Shown: positions 33,071 through 42,316 of the stretch, piece by piece | How positions within the stretch are numbered: the stretch's first letter is position 1 | Layout: each line of letters opens with the position of its first letter | DNA from: Sulfolobus sp. A20 | GTDB taxonomy: Archaea; Thermoproteota; Thermoprotei_A; Sulfolobales; Sulfolobaceae | Length of the DNA stretch: 64,000 nucleotides | NCBI RefSeq assembly: GCF_001719125.1 | Contig: NZ_CP017006.1 | Coordinates: 496,001 to 560,000 of the forward strand | Direction of reading: 5' to 3' | Notes under the pieces: model-generated | What the model was told of the DNA's origin: nothing | Database searches by the model: none | Seen by the model: the letters and a program-made list of their open reading frames with translations, nothing else | Translations under genes and position numbers: made by a program

Positions 33071-33526
33071 TTAACTTGCCGAAGTAAATATTACGGCTTT
33101 GTTTTGTTGTAGTTTCTCTTTTATCTTTTCCAATTTAGAGATCATGTTATTAATATCTTCATTTAAAATATCTTTATGATATTTTCTCACGTGTTCTTCA
33201 CTATCTTCCTTAGCTAAAATAATGTTACAAATTGAGCATTCATATGAGCCGTCATTTGACTTCTTCACTATTGGCTTTAAGTCTGTTGAAATTTCTTTGA
33301 GTATGGGTACGAGCTTTTTAGCTTTCCCTTCGCTTCCACTTTTCTCGATGATCCTTTGGGCATAGCCACGGAGCTGATGTTTTGAGATATTATATTTATA
33401 TGCAACTGTAGCTGGTCCTTCACCTTTAACTAAGTATTCTTCTAATGCATCCAATAGATAGTCGCTTCCACCTAATATTTTTAAAGCTACATAATTTACT
33501 AAAGACTTTATATCTGTTTGTTTCAT
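33071..33526 (-). CDS. HTH protein with C2H2 zinc finger
   Basis: This 151-residue protein has an N-terminal helix-turn-helix (YLVKGEGPATVAYKYNISKHQLRGYAQRII, about 31-60), a linker and one C2H2 zinc finger with C97, C100, H112 and H117 (ECSICNII ... EEHVRKYH), then a coiled-coil-like helix (about 120-143). It is probably a sequence-specific regulator. It follows purM at 57 bp on the same strand but has its own TATA (GTTTAAAAG, 33561-33569) and a striking inverted repeat over the start region, which suggests autoregulation. I do not recognise a named family. Confidence 0.72.
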   Translation of the reverse strand: MKQTDIKSLVNYVALKILGGSDYLLDALEEYLVKGEGPATVAYKYNISKHQLRGYAQRIIEKSGSEGKAKKLVPILKEISTDLKPIVKKSNDGSYECSICNIILAKEDSEEHVRKYHKDILNEDINNMISKLEKIKEKLQQNKAVIFTSAS

Positions 33527-33583: not shown

Positions 33584-34555
33584 CTATAAATAAAGAATAA
33601 CGTTCTTATAACTCTTTATCTCAATTCCGCTTCCCTCATATACTTTACCTATTTCATAAACATTTACGTATTTTCTTATCTCACTTTTTACCTCATCACT
33701 AAGTTCCTCTGAAACAAATAGAACTAAACCAATACCCATGTTGAAAATTTTATACATCTCTTCATGTGGTACCCCAGCTCTTTCAATAATTTTAAAGATT
33801 TCAGGTGGATCTGGCATATCTAAAACTATCTTATAACTAGTAAGTCTTTTAAGTTTAGTAAAAGTGCCTCCAGTAATGTGAGCAACACCCTTAACTTTGT
33901 CTATTACCTCTAAAACTGGTTTGACATAAATTTTTGTAGGAGATAATAATTGTTCTTTATATTGCTCTAATGAAATTCTTCCTTGATCAACTAATTTTCT
34001 GATCAATGAGTATCCATTAGCGTGAATACCATTACTTTCTAAGCCTAAAACGACATCTCCCGGTCTTATTTCAGAACCAGTTTTCAACTTATCTACAATT
34101 CCTATTGCAGTGCACGATAAATCAAATCCCTTTATCACGTCAGGCATGAAAGCTGTCTCACCACCAACTATTTCTACATTAGCCTCCTTTGCACCTTCCA
34201 CTAGTCCTTCCATCAATTGAGTAAGTACATCGTCCATTGGTCTTTCAAATGCTAAATAATCTACTAAAGCTACTGGCTTTGCACCTACGGATATTAGATC
34301 ATTGACGTTCATTGCTACACAATCTATTCCAACTGGTTTTACAATTCCAGCCTTTAATGCTAGTAATGTCTTAGTTCCTACTCCATCAGTGTGGATAGCT
34401 ATGTTCAAATTTTCTATTCTTATTATACCCGCGTAGTGCCCTGCGCCTAAAACAGTATTTTTATATGTGTTAGAAATTGCATTAGAAATTACAGAATGAT
34501 AACTTCGTAATTTGTTTAAGTCCACTCCAGCTTTCTTATACTCCTCGCTCACCAT
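33584..34555 (-). CDS. purM: Phosphoribosylformylglycinamidine cyclo-ligase (PurM)
   Basis: This 323-residue AIR synthetase has AGHYAGIIRIENLNIAIHTDGVGTK (about 38-62), DCVAMNVNDLISVGAKPVALVDY (about 78-100) and IVGGETAFMPDV (about 129). It closes FGAM to AIR. It is last in the pur operon and overlaps purD by 7 nt. Confidence 0.93.
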   Translation of the reverse strand: MVSEEYKKAGVDLNKLRSYHSVISNAISNTYKNTVLGAGHYAGIIRIENLNIAIHTDGVGTKTLLALKAGIVKPVGIDCVAMNVNDLISVGAKPVALVDYLAFERPMDDVLTQLMEGLVEGAKEANVEIVGGETAFMPDVIKGFDLSCTAIGIVDKLKTGSEIRPGDVVLGLESNGIHANGYSLIRKLVDQGRISLEQYKEQLLSPTKIYVKPVLEVIDKVKGVAHITGGTFTKLKRLTSYKIVLDMPDPPEIFKIIERAGVPHEEMYKIFNMGIGLVLFVSEELSDEVKSEIRKYVNVYEIGKVYEGSGIEIKSYKNVILYL

Positions 34556-35988
34556 AGTCCACCATTAGGACTCCATATGCCAGAAGATCCAAGAGTACCA
34601 TTTCTTATTCTATTTTTATAAGAGTATCTTACAATTTCTGCCTTTTCTATATGCTCTGTTATATTCTTACCAATATCATGTCTATATATTAGCTTAGTAT
34701 CAGAATGAATATAGTTTATGCACTTATCTAACTTCTCTGAGGCAGTGTTAAAATCTCCAATGCAAACTAGTTCTAAAGCTCTAGATCCTTTAGTTATCAG
34801 TTGCATCCCTTCTAACGCCACAGAGCCGAAAAATACAATACAACCAACTTCCTTTATTTTATTTAAGTCCAACATAATCTTATGATTACTTGCCATCTGT
34901 TTTGAAATTGGATAGCCTAGAGGGGCAACTGCACGAACTACAGATGACTCCTCTTTCACTTTGATTTTTGCCTTGCTCAGATGACCAGTTGCCGTTAGCT
35001 CTATTATCTCTCCAAAATCAGAGTCAACCCTCGGAATTATAGCTGATGCCTCAGGATCACCAAATCTCGAATAGAATTCAATTACTGTTGGTCCCCATAA
35101 CTCTGTTAACATCATTTGTCCTGCTATTATTCCTACATAATTCTTTTTAGTCTCTTCATATATTGCGTTAATAGTTTTCTTAATAATTTCATAGGTTGAA
35201 ACGTATTCGTCTTCTGTAATAAACGGCAAGAGATGATCTGGTCCAGAAATAGAGCCCATACCTCCAGTCTCTGGTCCAATCCCATCTTGATATGCGTTTT
35301 TGTAATCTTGAGCAAGGGGTAGAGGTAGAGTAGAGTAACCATCAGATATCACGTGTAGGGTATATTCTGGTCCATCTACTTTCTCTTCTATTATTATCTT
35401 TGGTTCTCCTTCTTTCTTATACAAATTTCCAATACCCGATACACTCCTACTTAATGCATCTCTCTTATCTTGTGACAGATATGCTTCTAAATCTGCAACT
35501 ACTTTAACTCCCCTTCCGCCTACTTGACCAGCTGGCTTTATCGCTATTGAACCTCCGTAGTTTAAGATAAATTCTGCAGCTTCCTCGATTGTATAAAACG
35601 TCCTATATTTCAATCTTCCCGGAATGGAGTATTTCCACATGAGTTGTCTTGCCCAGGCTTTAGACTCTTCTATCTTAGCTGTTTCCTTTAATGGTCCAAA
35701 CACGGGAATACCTTCCTCTTTAAATACGTTAGCTATTCCATGGAATAAGGGGTCTTCCGGACCAATAACCCCAATATCTGGACTAACTCTCTTTATTACT
35801 TCCTTTACTCTATCCACTGATGAAGTATCTCCGATAAAATACTCTCCATTAGTATTCTTTACTACTTCATTTATACCTGGATTAATATAAGTGGAAAGTG
35901 CAAATACCTTGTAGCCTTTTGGAGATTTTCCCAAAGAATAAGCTAATGAATGCTCTCTAGCCCCATCTCCGATTAAAAGAACTTTCAC
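34549..35988 (-). CDS. purD: Phosphoribosylamine-glycine ligase (PurD)
   Basis: This 479-residue GAR synthetase has an N-terminal domain (LLIGDGAREHSLAYSL), an ATP-grasp core (KPAGQVGGRGVKVV about 157, GPETGGMGSISG about 238, EFYSRFGDPEASAIIPR about 321) and a C-terminal domain. The protein is about 50 residues longer than bacterial PurD and ends in a Gly/Ser/Trp-rich tail. Its ATG follows the stop of the PurF-like gene with no spacer. Confidence 0.92.
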   Translation of the reverse strand: MKVLLIGDGAREHSLAYSLGKSPKGYKVFALSTYINPGINEVVKNTNGEYFIGDTSSVDRVKEVIKRVSPDIGVIGPEDPLFHGIANVFKEEGIPVFGPLKETAKIEESKAWARQLMWKYSIPGRLKYRTFYTIEEAAEFILNYGGSIAIKPAGQVGGRGVKVVADLEAYLSQDKRDALSRSVSGIGNLYKKEGEPKIIIEEKVDGPEYTLHVISDGYSTLPLPLAQDYKNAYQDGIGPETGGMGSISGPDHLLPFITEDEYVSTYEIIKKTINAIYEETKKNYVGIIAGQMMLTELWGPTVIEFYSRFGDPEASAIIPRVDSDFGEIIELTATGHLSKAKIKVKEESSVVRAVAPLGYPISKQMASNHKIMLDLNKIKEVGCIVFFGSVALEGMQLITKGSRALELVCIGDFNTASEKLDKCINYIHSDTKLIYRHDIGKNITEHIEKAEIVRYSYKNRIRNGTLGSSGIWSPNGGLW

Positions 35989-37197
35989 TCAGATCACCAC
36001 AGGATATTTTTTTGTCATACAACCTAAACATAATGAGTTATGACCTATTACCTTAATTAGCCCTTCTAAGCTGAGCCAATAAATAGAGTCTACTCCAAGC
36101 ACTTTTGCTATTTCAGAATCGTTTAGATTTGCAGAAATCAATTCCTTCTCCTCAGGCACTTCAATCCCATATGGGCAATTTGAGATTAGTTTAGGACTTC
36201 CGATAAGTACATGAACTTCCTTGGCTCCAAGTTTCCTTAAATTAAATACGGTGTTCTTTATAGTAGTCCCGGTAACCATTGAGTCATCTATGAGCACTAC
36301 TCTCTTTCCCTTAACTGCAGTTTTTATTGGATTTAGCTTTAATTGAACTCCAACTATTTTCAAAAAGCTATCTGAAGCTAACATAGTCCTAATTGGACTT
36401 CCGGTTCTAGTAAATCCTAGATCCATAGGTAAGCCTAATTTCCTTGAGTAACCTATAGCAAAAGGTAGCGCAGTTTCTGGTACTCCTATTACCGTATCAG
36501 CGTTTAAAGGTCTTTCAATCGCTAACTGTTCTCCTATTCTTAGCCTCAAATCATATACTTCTCTTTCATTTACTTTACTATCTATTCTAGCCTGATAGAT
36601 ATATTCAATTGCGCAATAGGACTTCTTAGGTTTTCTTACCTGCTTGCTTTCAATATGATATTTATCAATTATTATCATTTCTCCAGGATTTATATCTCTT
36701 TTATATTCAGCCCCGATAACATACATAGCTGTTGGTTCTGACGCCACTACAGCTAAATCAAACCCAAAACCTCCTATACTTATTGGTTTTAGTCCAAATT
36801 CATCTCTATATGCTATTAATTGACCCTCTTTGCTTATACCAATAAATGATATAGGTGCTTTAAGCCTTTCTATAACACTCTCTGGATCTTTAAATAACTC
36901 TGCAAATATGTCATTATCCTTCACTTCTCCATCCACAACTATAGAACCTTCCCCAGAAATTATCGGATATTTATGCCTAGTCCCTGCGTAACCTATTCCC
37001 GCCCAGCCACTTAATCCCTCGATATTTAGATCCTCAGGTGCAACATCTTGATTTATTAAAGTTATTTTTCCGTCTTTGAGTAAAGCTAAACCACTTTTTG
37101 AATAGCCTCGATGTTGCAATCCAATAATTCCATAGTATAAGAACTTCGAGATGTTCCATACTTCATCGAAGGCTAAAATTCCGAGGATTCCTGCCAT
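35989..37197 (-). CDS. PurF paralog lacking the glutaminase nucleophile
   Basis: This 402-residue protein aligns along its whole length with PurF (LQHRGYSKSGLALL, RDEFGLKPISIGG, VVLIDDSMVTGTTIKNT at 300-316) but starts Met-Ala-Gly-Ile-Leu, with Ala where PurF has the mature N-terminal Cys. The RYSTTG segment is replaced by AGTRHKYP and the oxyanion Asn by Asp89. The PRPP loop is kept, with Thr for Arg, and so are all four presumed Fe-S cysteines (C195, C341, C390, C393). A stop codon two codons upstream rules out a longer N-terminus. It may be an ammonia-using PRTase or a regulatory subunit of the adjacent PurF. Confidence 0.85.
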   Translation of the reverse strand: MAGILGILAFDEVWNISKFLYYGIIGLQHRGYSKSGLALLKDGKITLINQDVAPEDLNIEGLSGWAGIGYAGTRHKYPIISGEGSIVVDGEVKDNDIFAELFKDPESVIERLKAPISFIGISKEGQLIAYRDEFGLKPISIGGFGFDLAVVASEPTAMYVIGAEYKRDINPGEMIIIDKYHIESKQVRKPKKSYCAIEYIYQARIDSKVNEREVYDLRLRIGEQLAIERPLNADTVIGVPETALPFAIGYSRKLGLPMDLGFTRTGSPIRTMLASDSFLKIVGVQLKLNPIKTAVKGKRVVLIDDSMVTGTTIKNTVFNLRKLGAKEVHVLIGSPKLISNCPYGIEVPEEKELISANLNDSEIAKVLGVDSIYWLSLEGLIKVIGHNSLCLGCMTKKYPVVI

Positions 37198-37203
37198 TTT
37201 TTA

Positions 37204-38556
37204 TCACTTTCCAAATATTTTTTCTAACTCAGAAATATCATATTTAAACTTTAATGGATAATTTCCAGTAAAACAAGCTACACATAAATCTTTCCTCCCT
37301 ATAGCCTGAATTAGCTCATCTACTGTTAAGTACTCTACTGAGTCAGCCAATAGTTCTTTACTTATTTCCCTTTCTGTCCTATTATAAGCTACTAGCTCAT
37401 CCCTCTTAGGGAAATCTATTCCCATATAGCAAGGATATTTGATCATGGGTGAGCCAACTCGTATATGCACTTCAGTTGCGCCTGCATTTCGTAGTATACT
37501 TACTATTCTCCTCATGGTATTTCCTCTAACTATAGAATCGTCTATTAGTATAACTTTCTTCCCTCTTACTGCTTCTTCTACTACTCCAAATTTTTCTTCA
37601 AGGACTTCTTTCCTCTTATCTTGGCTTGGCATAATGAAGGATCTTATCGACGATAAAGTTTTCACTAATGCTTCCTCCAACGGAATTTTACTCCTCCTAG
37701 AGAAGCCCAAAGCTACTGGTCTTGACGAATCTGGAACTGGAATTACAATGTCTCCGTCGGCAGGGTGTTTTTCCGCTAATATCTCTCCTATTCTGTACCT
37801 AGCAAAGTAAACTGAATAGCCATCTATGTTGGTATCTGATCTTGCGAAATATATATATTCAAAAGAACAAGTAGCGGATAAAGTACTATTAGCTAATACT
37901 TCATCATAAATTATCCTACCGTCCTTTAAAATTATCACTTCTCCCGGTTTTACATGCTTTATGATTTTCCCACCTAATTGTCTTATTATTGAATCCTCTG
38001 ATGAAAGTATTAGAGAATCATTTAATTTACCTAAGACTAATGGATGAAATCCAAGAGGGTCTCTCATTCCTATTATCTTACCGTCACTCATTAGAATTAA
38101 AGCGGAGTACGCTCCATCAGAATTTTCCATAAAATTCTTCACAGTCTCAATTATACTATCCTTAACTATCCTCTTTTTGAAGAATGAGTAGATGTACTCA
38201 GTATCAGTTTTGAATGAGCCAAATTTATAATAGTTACTTATTGTACCATTAAACGCTACTACAATATCAGAGTCGCCTAAAGGTTGTGCTTCATCAATTG
38301 AGCTACTTCCGGTCGTTGAATATCTTACATGTCCTATACCATTACGTATTATCTTTTCTAGCTTGTCCCTAAATACTTCTTCTACTAGCCCTAACCCTTT
38401 AATAGTATATACCTTTTCCCTTTCTGAGTAAGATATGCCAGCTGACTCTTGTCCCCTATGCTGAAGTAATTTCAGCCCCTCTACAACTAACTGTATATTG
38501 ATTGGATATCTTGACGATATAGCAAAAATTCCACAATTTTCATGTAGTTTAACCAT
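37204..38556 (-). CDS. purF: Amidophosphoribosyltransferase (PurF), active form
   Basis: This 450-residue enzyme has a seven-residue propeptide before the nucleophile C8 (HENCGIF). Glutaminase residues are present: R78 in VRYSTTG, N103-G104 in AFNG and D118 in KTDTE. The PRPP loop is ILIDDSIVRGNT (336-347). Cysteines C230, C376, C425 and C428 match the [4Fe-4S] ligands of Bacillus-type PurF. It converts PRPP and glutamine to phosphoribosylamine, the first purine step. It overlaps purL by 8 nt and is followed 6 nt later by its Cys-less paralog. Confidence 0.94.
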   Translation of the reverse strand: MVKLHENCGIFAISSRYPINIQLVVEGLKLLQHRGQESAGISYSEREKVYTIKGLGLVEEVFRDKLEKIIRNGIGHVRYSTTGSSSIDEAQPLGDSDIVVAFNGTISNYYKFGSFKTDTEYIYSFFKKRIVKDSIIETVKNFMENSDGAYSALILMSDGKIIGMRDPLGFHPLVLGKLNDSLILSSEDSIIRQLGGKIIKHVKPGEVIILKDGRIIYDEVLANSTLSATCSFEYIYFARSDTNIDGYSVYFARYRIGEILAEKHPADGDIVIPVPDSSRPVALGFSRRSKIPLEEALVKTLSSIRSFIMPSQDKRKEVLEEKFGVVEEAVRGKKVILIDDSIVRGNTMRRIVSILRNAGATEVHIRVGSPMIKYPCYMGIDFPKRDELVAYNRTEREISKELLADSVEYLTVDELIQAIGRKDLCVACFTGNYPLKFKYDISELEKIFGK

Positions 38557-40684
38557 TAATCATCTCCTCCTCAAGGAAATAACGATAATAATCAACGAGC
38601 TTGTTTAAATCGAATTTTTCACCATTTATCTCTAAAACACCAGAATTTTTATCGACATTTCCTATAACCGAGGCAACTATTCCCTTACTGTTTGCTTTCC
38701 TTATTATCCAATCTGGATCATTAGATAATAATATGAATCTTCCACTACTTTCTGAAAATAAAATTCTTTTTAAATCATCAGTATCTGCTATTACATTTTT
38801 ATCATTTATGCTAACTCCAAATCCATTATGAACGATACTAAATAATGAATAAGCCAGACCACCTTTGTTAACGTCTTTTGCAAAAATTATCTTTTCATCG
38901 TTGATTAATTCCAGAACAACTTGTGATGCTAGTAAATCCTCTTGAAGTCTAACCTTAGGGACATCAGATATAACATTAAATATTTTTGAAAATAATGAAC
39001 CACCTAATTCTCCCCTAGTATATCCTAAGAGTACTATGTAAGTATCTTCCTCAACTCTGTTCCTCAAGAATTTCCCTTGTACAATACCAGCCATAACTAT
39101 TAATGGAGTGGGCTTTATTGGAATACCTCTGTTATTCTCGTTATAGAATGAAACCTTACCACCTACAATAGGTATGTTGAAAAATCTGGCTGCTTCTCCT
39201 ATGCCTCTAACTGCGTCTACAAAATCATTGTAAACTTCTGGCTTTTTAGGATCTCCAAACTGAAGGTGATCGACTGCAACTATTCCCTTAGCCCCAACTG
39301 ACGCTAGATTCCTGTAAGCTTCAGCAAATATACCTTTACCGCATTCATAGGAGTCTTCTTCACATAGATCTGGATTTGCATCACCTTTCACTGCTAATAG
39401 TTTTCCGTTAGGCAAAAGTAATACTGCACTATCAGCTTCTCCAGGCTTAACTACAGTAGAAGTATTAACTTCATAATCGTATTGACTATACACCCACTCT
39501 TTACTTACTAAATCAGGATGAGATAGAACAGTATATAAGGCATCCTTAAGAGATATAGAAGATTTTGTCTCTTTTTTAACACTATCTTTTTCCTTTCTTC
39601 TTATTGGCCAAATAAATCTAGGAGGGTTAAGCAGAATATCAGAGGGTAGTGTTACTATATCCTTGTTATTATACCTAAACTTTATATAAGGATCTTTAAC
39701 TATCTCGCCTATTACCGTACATGGGTATTCGTATTGTTTAAAAATCTCACAAACTTCATCTACTTTATTAGGTTTAACTGCATACAACATTCTTTCTTGT
39801 GTCTCAGACACGACTATGTCTATTGGATCCATTCCCTTAACCCGCAGAGGAATTTTTTCTATATTCACTATTGCCCCTAGTCCATTTGCGATTTCAGTCA
39901 CAGCTACTGCGAGGCCTCCTCCACCTAAATCTTTTATAGCTTCTACCTTATCTGAAACCTCTAGTGTTGCGTCTAAAACTATTTTGCCAGCAAAAGGATC
40001 AGCTATTTGAACAGCCCCAATTTCGTCTTCTCCGCTCAATTTTCTTGAAGCAAAAGAAGCCCCACCTAAACCGTCAACCCCAGTCAAACCTACTAAAACT
40101 AACTTTAACCCAGGCTCTTTAACTACACTAGGAATTATTTTATCCTTTCTAACTACACCCACACAAGCCACATCAACTAAAGGATTATCGTTAAATGATT
40201 CATCAAATGCTAATTCACCACCTACTACTGGTACGCCTATACTATTCCCGTAAAATGCTATTCCTGCTATTATGTTTTTTAACAACCAACGAGTTCTATC
40301 GCTCCTAATATCCCCTACTCTAATCATATCTAATAATGCAATAGGTTTAGCTCCTTTACTTATTATATCTCTAATTATTCCGCCTACTCCTGTTGCAGCT
40401 CCATTAAATGGGTCTACAGCCGATGGATGGTTATGACTTTCAACTTTTAAGACGATAGCCCAACCGTCACCAATATCTATTGCACCTGCATCTTGCCAGT
40501 CTTCTATTCCCATCACTACGTTTTCTCCTTCGGTAGGAAAGCTCTTTAAGAAAACTTTTGATGATTTATAAGAGCAGTGCTCAGACCATACTGCATCTAG
40601 TACTTTCCATTCAGCTTCATTTGGCTCTCTTCCTAATCTTCTTCTTACCTCATCCATTTCGATAGGTAATAAGTTTACGCCCAT
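38549..40684 (-). CDS. purL: FGAM synthase subunit PurL
   Basis: This 711-residue small-type PurL has VLDAVWSEHCSYKSSK (about 27), ESHNHPSAVDPFNGAATGVGGIIRD (about 83-107) and KDLGGGGLAVAVTEIA (about 256). It lacks the amidotransferase domain, which is supplied by PurQ, with PurS as the third subunit. It converts FGAR to FGAM with ATP. It overlaps purQ by 10 nt. Confidence 0.95.
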   Translation of the reverse strand: MGVNLLPIEMDEVRRRLGREPNEAEWKVLDAVWSEHCSYKSSKVFLKSFPTEGENVVMGIEDWQDAGAIDIGDGWAIVLKVESHNHPSAVDPFNGAATGVGGIIRDIISKGAKPIALLDMIRVGDIRSDRTRWLLKNIIAGIAFYGNSIGVPVVGGELAFDESFNDNPLVDVACVGVVRKDKIIPSVVKEPGLKLVLVGLTGVDGLGGASFASRKLSGEDEIGAVQIADPFAGKIVLDATLEVSDKVEAIKDLGGGGLAVAVTEIANGLGAIVNIEKIPLRVKGMDPIDIVVSETQERMLYAVKPNKVDEVCEIFKQYEYPCTVIGEIVKDPYIKFRYNNKDIVTLPSDILLNPPRFIWPIRRKEKDSVKKETKSSISLKDALYTVLSHPDLVSKEWVYSQYDYEVNTSTVVKPGEADSAVLLLPNGKLLAVKGDANPDLCEEDSYECGKGIFAEAYRNLASVGAKGIVAVDHLQFGDPKKPEVYNDFVDAVRGIGEAARFFNIPIVGGKVSFYNENNRGIPIKPTPLIVMAGIVQGKFLRNRVEEDTYIVLLGYTRGELGGSLFSKIFNVISDVPKVRLQEDLLASQVVLELINDEKIIFAKDVNKGGLAYSLFSIVHNGFGVSINDKNVIADTDDLKRILFSESSGRFILLSNDPDWIIRKANSKGIVASVIGNVDKNSGVLEINGEKFDLNKLVDYYRYFLEEEMING

Positions 40685-41349
40685 TTTGCCAACCCTCTTA
40701 ATAAAAGTAATCCATCCGTGCTTCCATCCGGTGAAATTAATTTAAACGAAGCCCTCTCGGGATGAGGCATTAACCCAATTACATTCCCCTCCTCGTTAGC
40801 TACTGATGCAATATTCAGTAGGGAACCGTTAGGGTTAGCCTTTTCAGTGGGTTTTCCCATCTCGTCAACGTACTGTATAACCATGTGTGACTTAGCATAG
40901 TCAACATCGTCTATGTAATATCTTCCTTCAGCATGAGCTATAGGCATCCTAATGATATTTTTGCCTAGTCCACGAGTTAGGACGGTATCAAATCTTACTA
41001 CCTTAAGGTAAGTCCATTTAGAAATGAATCTTAGCTTCAAATTAGGTAATAATGCGCCCTTTAATAGACCGCTCTCCACTAATATTTGGAAGCCATTGCA
41101 TATTCCAATTACTGGCTTTCCATTATCAGCAATCTCTTTAACGAGTTTTACAGCTTCAGTATTAGACGCTATACTACCAGCCCTTAAATAATCACCAAAA
41201 CTAAACCCACCAGGTAGTATAACTCCACTATACTTATCTGGATCAAATTCTTGATGCTTTACTACTTTTGCTTGTACACCTGCTTCCAGTAACGCTTTAT
41301 ATACGTCAGACTCACAAGTAGTTCCAGGGAATTTTATAACTGCGATCAT
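40675..41349 (-). CDS. purQ: FGAM synthase glutaminase subunit PurQ
   Basis: This 224-residue class I amidotransferase has GVILPGGFSFGDYLRAG (about 44-60), the nucleophile Cys in GICNGFQILVESGLL (about 81-95) and the His-Glu of MPHPERASF near the C-terminus. It delivers ammonia to PurL. It overlaps purS by 4 nt. Confidence 0.95.
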   Translation of the reverse strand: MIAVIKFPGTTCESDVYKALLEAGVQAKVVKHQEFDPDKYSGVILPGGFSFGDYLRAGSIASNTEAVKLVKEIADNGKPVIGICNGFQILVESGLLKGALLPNLKLRFISKWTYLKVVRFDTVLTRGLGKNIIRMPIAHAEGRYYIDDVDYAKSHMVIQYVDEMGKPTEKANPNGSLLNIASVANEEGNVIGLMPHPERASFKLISPDGSTDGLLLLRGLAKWA

Positions 41350-41609
41350 TCTTTACTCACTCTTACAATAATTTTATGTACAATAGGGTTGTATAATCTG
41401 CCTTCTGAAGCAACTTTTTCAATTATTTCTTTAGCGGATTTTTCGTCACTAGCCTCTATCTTAAACCTAATATATTTTCCAACTCTCGTTTCTAGTACAT
41501 TTTTACTATACTTCTCTACAACATATTTTTGTAAGGTCTCTCCTTCAGGGTCTCTAACTATATCCTTATTTATTATTATTAATTCTACAGAATAAATCAT
41601 TTTTAACAC
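41346..41609 (-). CDS. purS: FGAM synthase subunit PurS
   Basis: This 87-residue protein has typical PurS features: DPEGETLQKYVVEKY (about 17-31), VGKYIRFKIEASDEKSAKEIIEKVASE and the end IVHKIIVRVSKE. PurS bridges PurQ and PurL. It lies 5 nt after purC. Confidence 0.92.
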   Translation of the reverse strand: MLKMIYSVELIIINKDIVRDPEGETLQKYVVEKYSKNVLETRVGKYIRFKIEASDEKSAKEIIEKVASEGRLYNPIVHKIIVRVSKE

Positions 41610-41614
41610 CTAAT

Positions 41615-42316
41615 TTATTGTATAATTCTCTTCAAGAATTCTTCATAGGCTCTCTTAACTGTTGAGAGATCATATCCCTTTCTGTATAAATCTTTATCAT
41701 AGATTTTTCCATTACTATCTCTAATCCTCATACTATCGAGGCTTATCTCGTCACCTATAATTAATTTATTATCTAATCTGCCAAATTCAAGCTTGAAGTC
41801 ATACAATATAAATCCCTTATTCTTTATAAAATTGTAAAGCACTTCGTTTGCTTTTATCATAACTTCTTCAATATATCTAGCCTCATCCCTTGTAAGCAAT
41901 TTAAAATATTCTAGGTGAGAGTAATTTAATAATGGGTCATGAAGCTTATCGTCTTTTAGGAAAAACTCGACAATAGGAGGTTGAAACACTTCACCTTCTT
42001 TTATCGGGAGTCTCTTGACTATACTACCCGTCGCTATATTCCTTAACACTACTTCAACTGGGATCATCTTTAGCTTTTTAACTACCATCGTCCTATCATC
42101 ATACATACCAACGTAATGCGTCTCTATTCCATTCCTCTCCAACAATCTAAACAATAAGGCTGAGGTTTGAGCATTTAATACGCCTTTACCCTCTAGTACA
42201 TCTTTTCTTTGACCATCACCAGCGGTTATATCATCCTTGAACTTGAGTAATACGTAATTATTCTCATACTCGTAAACTATCTTCGTTTTTCCCTCAGAAA
42301 TCTTGGTTAGCTCCAT
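41615..42316 (-). CDS. purC: SAICAR synthase (PurC)
   Basis: This 233-residue enzyme has the signatures [14 protein letters not shown] (7-20), [21 protein letters not shown] (about 28-48), [11 protein letters not shown] (about 169) and [11 protein letters not shown]. It joins aspartate to CAIR. It is first in the pur operon; TATAAAAAC (42339-42347) is centred 26 bp before its ATG on the minus strand, so the operon mRNA is leaderless. purE, purK, purB and purH are not in the window. Confidence 0.95.

Follow-up and report, generated by a model that had tools for sequence, protein, structure and literature searches.

PurF', a PurF paralogue without glutaminase residues, as a candidate partner of PurF and PurD in archaeal purine operons

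Introduction

Why does an archaeal purine operon hold two PurF-like genes in tandem, the second without the residues by which PurF hydrolyzes glutamine? The locus that raises this question lies in a window of 64,000 nucleotides (C1:496001-560000) of a 2.69 Mb Sulfolobus-family genome. The gene belongs to an already published family: Brown et al. (2011; PMC3261824) reported that every crenarchaeon in their study has a pair of PurF-like genes. They named the second, which has no N-terminal Cys, PurF', and suggested an ammonia-dependent activity while leaving its function undecided. In the open-access literature searched, no later functional work on PurF' was found, and the main text of the S. 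islandicus essential-genome paper does not mention purine genes.

The wider setting is the fate of phosphoribosylamine (PRA), an unstable intermediate whose channeling from PurF to PurD is backed by kinetics and for which no stable complex has been found (PMC10912719). For PurF and PurD of a hyperthermophile the coupling was too weak, and a further protein or small molecule was suggested to be needed (PMC3261824).

Gene and Operon Structure

The two PurF-like open reading frames are on the minus strand. The canonical amidophosphoribosyltransferase gene, purF (37204-38556, 450 aa), scores 387.8 bits against TIGR01134 (cut-off 350) and encodes Cys8 (the mature Cys1), RYSTTG, and the oxyanion-hole Asn; it is followed by purF' (35989-37197, 402 aa), recognized from the open reading frame list, an AlphaFold2 model, and its match to the PurF fold. 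Upstream in the same operon are purL, purQ, purS, and purC (38549-42316), and downstream are purD (GAR synthetase, 34549-35988), whose first base directly follows the purF' stop, and purM (33584-34555; frame list and neighbor survey), giving the minus-strand order purC-purS-purQ-purL-purF-purF'-purD-purM. The three genes purF, purF', and purD share a single reading frame across 34549-38556, with stops alone between them (TGA TAA AAA at the first junction, one stop at the second). Between purM and argG, a minus-strand frame of 151 aa (33071-33526) carries a C2H2-like motif (CSIC...H...H) and is perhaps a regulator of the operon.

The sequence TGA TAA AAA (37198-37206, minus strand) contains the purF stop and a second in-frame stop ahead of the purF' ATG, so an upstream start cannot add a Cys. 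This disposes of a wrongly placed start, one of two refuting possibilities raised in the preliminary description of the locus. The other, a decaying pseudogene, also fails, as the frame is open in all 30 Sulfolobaceae PurF' loci and dN/dS is well below 1. In close pairs purF' dN is far lower than dS (in L012-L015, for instance, 0.034/0.507 for one half and 0.036/0.779 for the other), indicating strong purifying selection on the gene in close relatives. The glutaminase-like half usually changes faster than the phosphoribosyltransferase (PRTase) half in these pairs, and PurF' proteins share a mean pairwise identity of 0.32 over the first half and 0.48 over the second, compared to 0.36 and 0.47 within PurF.

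Residues Lost and Residues Kept

An alignment of 124 PurF' and 136 PurF proteins was used for all residue counts. At the N terminus, PurF' reads MAGILG where PurF reads HEN-CGIFA, placing Ala2 (37192-37194) at the position of the mature nucleophile Cys1, and Cys1 is missing from 123 of the 124 aligned PurF' proteins, the sole exception being that of Candidatus Jordarchaeum (L131). The glutamine-binding GHVRYSTTG of PurF is replaced by GYAGTRHKYP (YAGTRHKYP, residues 70-78, 36964-36990), without Arg73, and the VRYxT motif occurs in 134/136 PurF and 0/124 PurF'. The oxyanion-hole position Asn101 (AFNGT in PurF) is Asp89 (VVDGE, 36931-36933), and is Asp or Glu in 107/124. A Pfam scan of PurF' matched the PRTase domain and no glutaminase domain. 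Given the near-universal absence of Cys1 and the complete absence of VRYxT, loss of the glutaminase residues is, judged from aligned residues, beyond chance. The preliminary description of a glutaminase-dead PurF paralogue in a purine operon therefore holds, and the Cys loss whose conservation it proposed to check extends to nearly all orthologues.

The PRTase half is a different matter. The PRPP loop (residues 300-312, VLIDDSMVTGTT region, 36262-36300, minus strand) reads IDDSMVTGTT in PurF' and IDDSIVRGTT in PurF, the main difference being Arg371 to Thr; Asp304, Asp305, and Gly310 (E. coli Asp366, Asp367, and Gly372) are found in 124/124 and Thr312 (Thr374) in 121/124. Arg270 (E. coli Arg332) and Lys287 (Lys349) are invariant within the flexible loop (residues 264-290, 36328-36408), which has lower pLDDT and a consensus of its own in PurF'. 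All four cysteines that bind the Fe-S cluster in Bacillus-type PurF are present as putative cluster ligands, namely Cys195 (36613-36615, 116/124), Cys341 (36175-36177, 124/124), and Cys390 and Cys393 (36019-36030, 124/124 each). A motif specific to PurF', G..GF[DE] (residues 142-147, GGFGFD, 36757-36774), occurs in 123/124 PurF' and 0/136 PurF. The AlphaFold2 model (pLDDT 91.1, pTM 0.88) is a complete two-domain PurF fold, matching 6lbp, 1ao0, and 1gph with Z of about 44 (for 1ao0, Z 44.4 over 386 residues, rmsd 2.3 A), and the full fold is thus predicted to be preserved, as the preliminary description had proposed along with the near-intact PRPP loop and the four cysteines.

A dead glutaminase joined to an intact PRTase site is what would be expected of an ammonia-dependent PRPP aminotransferase acting on its own, one that would supply PRA whenever ammonia is abundant while PurF relies on glutamine. 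Against it, Phe334 and Ile335 of PurF are changed in PurF' to Ala/Met and Leu/Ile; we take these two residues to form part of the ammonia-channel region. In favor, replacing Cys1 of E. coli PurF leaves its NH3-dependent activity in place, as cited in a passage of PMC3261824. We consider this explanation unlikely, though far from negligible, in view of the changed channel-region residues, of the finding that PurF' was convincingly found alone in no genome, and of two unusual genomes described below.

The flexible loop with its own consensus and the Arg371 to Thr change could also indicate a PRTase that works outside purine synthesis on a new acceptor; a PRTase with a new substrate was one of the options in the preliminary description, and the change brings the PRPP loop closer to other type I PRTases. 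PurF', however, is nearly always in the purine operon and apparently never occurs without PurF, and this context and pairing leave the option very improbable.

Distribution and Phylogeny

A survey of 397 genomes of the phylum placed PurF' in many families outside the order, and it was also found in Bathyarchaeota, Methanomethylicota, basal Nitrososphaeria MAGs, Theionarchaea, and the Asgard MAG Ca. Jordarchaeum. Two Bathyarchaeota MAGs carrying PurF' (L136, L137) have soil-core-like sample names (habitat was taken from record titles), which does not support PurF' as a thermophile-only trait. PurF occurs without PurF' in many genomes, and purine synthesis proceeds without PurF' in many archaea and in the few bacteria examined. 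The reverse, PurF' without PurF, was convincingly found in no genome: where a full PurF was not found, PurF' lay at the end of its contig or close to it (G376, G381, G269), or a partial PurF was cut by a contig end (G232).

All 49 PurF' proteins in the unrooted tree are split off together by a branch (SH-aLRT 100) and form, in this sampling, a single clade against all PurF. The PurF and PurF' subtrees are alike, with many groupings common to both, and their identity distances correlate at 0.78, which is weak evidence as it includes shared species history. In one genome of the same order (G116, locus L047), both proteins have an unexpected position, grouping with the distant families f70, f23, and f52, as if the pair had been moved together by transfer.

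The Jordarchaeum PurF' (L131:5875-7332) keeps Cys1 and Asn101 and lacks the RYST motif, while having the PRTase-side features of PurF'. It is a possible evolutionary intermediate, and the combination of Cys1 and Asn101 with an absent RYST suggests that the PRTase-side signature may predate glutaminase loss; alternatively, Cys1 may have been regained or the MAG may be misassembled. A division of labor in which PurF serves only as glutaminase and PurF' only as PRTase is not supported, since the PurF PRPP loop is well conserved. Decay of the PurF flexible loop is seen in some lineages that have PurF' and also in genomes that lack it, such as L268 and L269; in these two and in L273, likewise without PurF', the loop has an insertion and the position of Lys349 is not occupied by Lys.

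The same survey bears on whether PurF' might be the unidentified IMP cyclohydrolase of Crenarchaeota. Archaeal PurO likewise has an Ntn-type fold. Crenarchaea lack PurO and PurH2 (PMC6797443), and a known enzyme is present in 3/50 genomes with PurF' compared to 11/30 without it. The distribution of PurF' among these 80 genomes is nevertheless not complementary to the known enzymes (PurO, PurH2): 19 of the 30 PurF'-lacking genomes are also without one, so PurF' cannot fill this gap in general. Additionally, PurF' is most strongly conserved in its PRTase half and its neighbor purD encodes step 2 of the pathway, making this role extremely improbable. No match to PurO or PurH was found in the Sulfolobales sampled (G000 among them, with 79 other genomes searched), and many other PurF-bearing Thermoproteota have neither; the missing IMP cyclohydrolase is thus more widespread than Crenarchaeota.

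Linkage to purD

Gene neighbors were surveyed at 104 distinct purF' loci with room on both sides. The gene adjoins a same-strand purD in 94/104 loci and a same-strand purF in 83/104, and all three genes are adjacent and co-directional in 78/104. Linkage to purD without an adjacent, co-directional purF occurs in 16/104 loci, specifically the rearranged clade f4/f5/f8, f24 (where purD is upstream), three f33 genomes with a divergent purF, and one locus where 376 nt separate purF' from purF, whereas purF' next to purF with purD not adjacent occurs in only 5/104. Other arrangements include purF' alone in the f6 lineage (L048, L050, L052) and, in part of f33, purD 1.9 kb from purF' with purM between. 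Thus purD is the most stable neighbor of purF', even where purF has moved away, although loci of one lineage are not independent and the cases with purD and without purF represent few independent events. Where PurF' is absent, the usual neighbor of purF is purL, and purD adjoins purF in 5 of about 24 loci.

These patterns bear on a catalytically silent regulatory subunit, which would form mixed oligomers with PurF and use its PRTase site to sense PRPP or nucleotides. Other enzymes are known to have such pseudo-enzyme partners, and the apparently exclusive co-occurrence with PurF, the adjacent and co-directional genes, the similar trees, and the same fold are all consistent with one. On the other hand, the equivalents of Lys326 and Arg328, presumably the allosteric A-site of B. 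subtilis PurF, are not conserved in PurF', and the purD linkage persists where the purF linkage does not; we regard a purely regulatory subunit as rather unlikely. A regulatory partner of PurF had been among the initial proposals, of which the partner role is favored here, while gene order points to PurD at least as much as to PurF.

Two Genomes With a Glutaminase-Dead PurF

In two MAGs of the same order, G150 and G151 (79 and 83% completeness, purine genes on one contig), the canonical PurF itself (L079:10608-12005 and L080:10860-12344, from alignment) carries Gly at the positions of both Cys1 and Arg73 and Asp at that of Asn101. PurQ was not found in either genome and was found in all four of the relatives searched from the same genus; purD and purL lie about 0.8-1.3 kb closer together than in relatives; and the sole match to the class I glutaminase family PF00117 is a frame of 535 aa that is, by its length, probably CTP synthase. 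PurF' is retained in both, adjoining purD, and the aligned PRPP-site residues of the G150 copy are intact.

These residues and gene contents suggest G150 and G151 as candidates for an ammonia-only purine pathway, and hence as a natural test of such synthesis. They cut both ways for an ammonia-dependent isozyme: ammonia-only purine synthesis would then exist within this order, but the PurF of these genomes should itself be ammonia-dependent, so that a spare would be redundant, and PurF' was kept nonetheless. The retention of PurF' where PurF is glutaminase-dead and PurQ undetected indicates that it is probably not merely an ammonia-using spare of PurF, and the plain isozyme put forward at the outset is weakened accordingly.

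A Proposed Role in PRA Hand-Off

The reading that we favor, at somewhat less than even confidence, is that PurF' acts as a partner protein that binds PRPP or PRA and so links the formation of PRA to PurD. It draws on the dead glutaminase residues, the intact PRPP site, the predicted fold, purifying selection, pairing with PurF, and the near-invariant purD linkage. PurF' would be a subunit of ancient origin in the first two purine-biosynthetic steps, with an inactive glutaminase half and a PRTase half that still binds PRPP or its product. Sitting between PurF and PurD and contacting both, it would bind or receive the short-lived PRA as it is formed and pass it to PurD for use, and it might also make some PRA from PRPP and ammonia. 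The intact PRPP-type site, the PurF pairing, and the purD linkage together make PurF' a good candidate for the further protein needed in PurF-PurD coupling. Adjacency to purD is tempered as functional evidence, as operon neighbors of one pathway are expected anyway, and an AlphaFold2 prediction of a PurF'-PurD read-through fusion gave no confident docking (pTM 0.63); with tethered chains and a shallow alignment of 16 rows, it weighs neither for nor against contact.

A bolder form, which we hold as doubtful, is that PurF' is a dedicated PRA hand-off subunit bridging PurF and PurD, the long-suspected missing protein, whose PRTase side, to judge from the Jordarchaeum copy with Cys1, became specialized before the glutaminase was lost. 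If true, such a protein would let organisms, hyperthermophiles above all, use a very fast-decaying intermediate. How PRA reaches PurD has been a question since the kinetic evidence for channeling in 1995, and PurF' offers a concrete, testable protein for it.

Comparison With Known Systems

The gene does not differ from PurF' of Brown et al. (2011; PMC3261824): it lacks the N-terminal Cys, is the second of two such genes, lies near purF and other purine genes, and clusters separately from PurF. To that family the present analysis adds a wider range, a diagnostic motif, the linkage to purD, an Asgard relative that has kept Cys1, and the two genomes with a glutaminase-dead PurF. In comparison with Bacillus-type PurF (1gph, 1ao0; TIGR01134; EC 2.4.2.14), PurF' shares the two-domain fold, the PRPP loop with Arg332 and Lys349, and the four cluster cysteines, and differs in lacking Cys1, Arg73, and Asn101, in its own flexible-loop consensus and G..GF[DE], and in scoring 217.8 bits against TIGR01134, for which membership takes at least 350. 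A further parallel is beta-lactam synthetase (1jgt), which we take to be a class II amidotransferase relative without Cys1; by fold match, PurF' has likewise retained the class II glutaminase fold after Cys loss, whereas the synthase half and the pathway of beta-lactam synthetase differ from those of PurF'.
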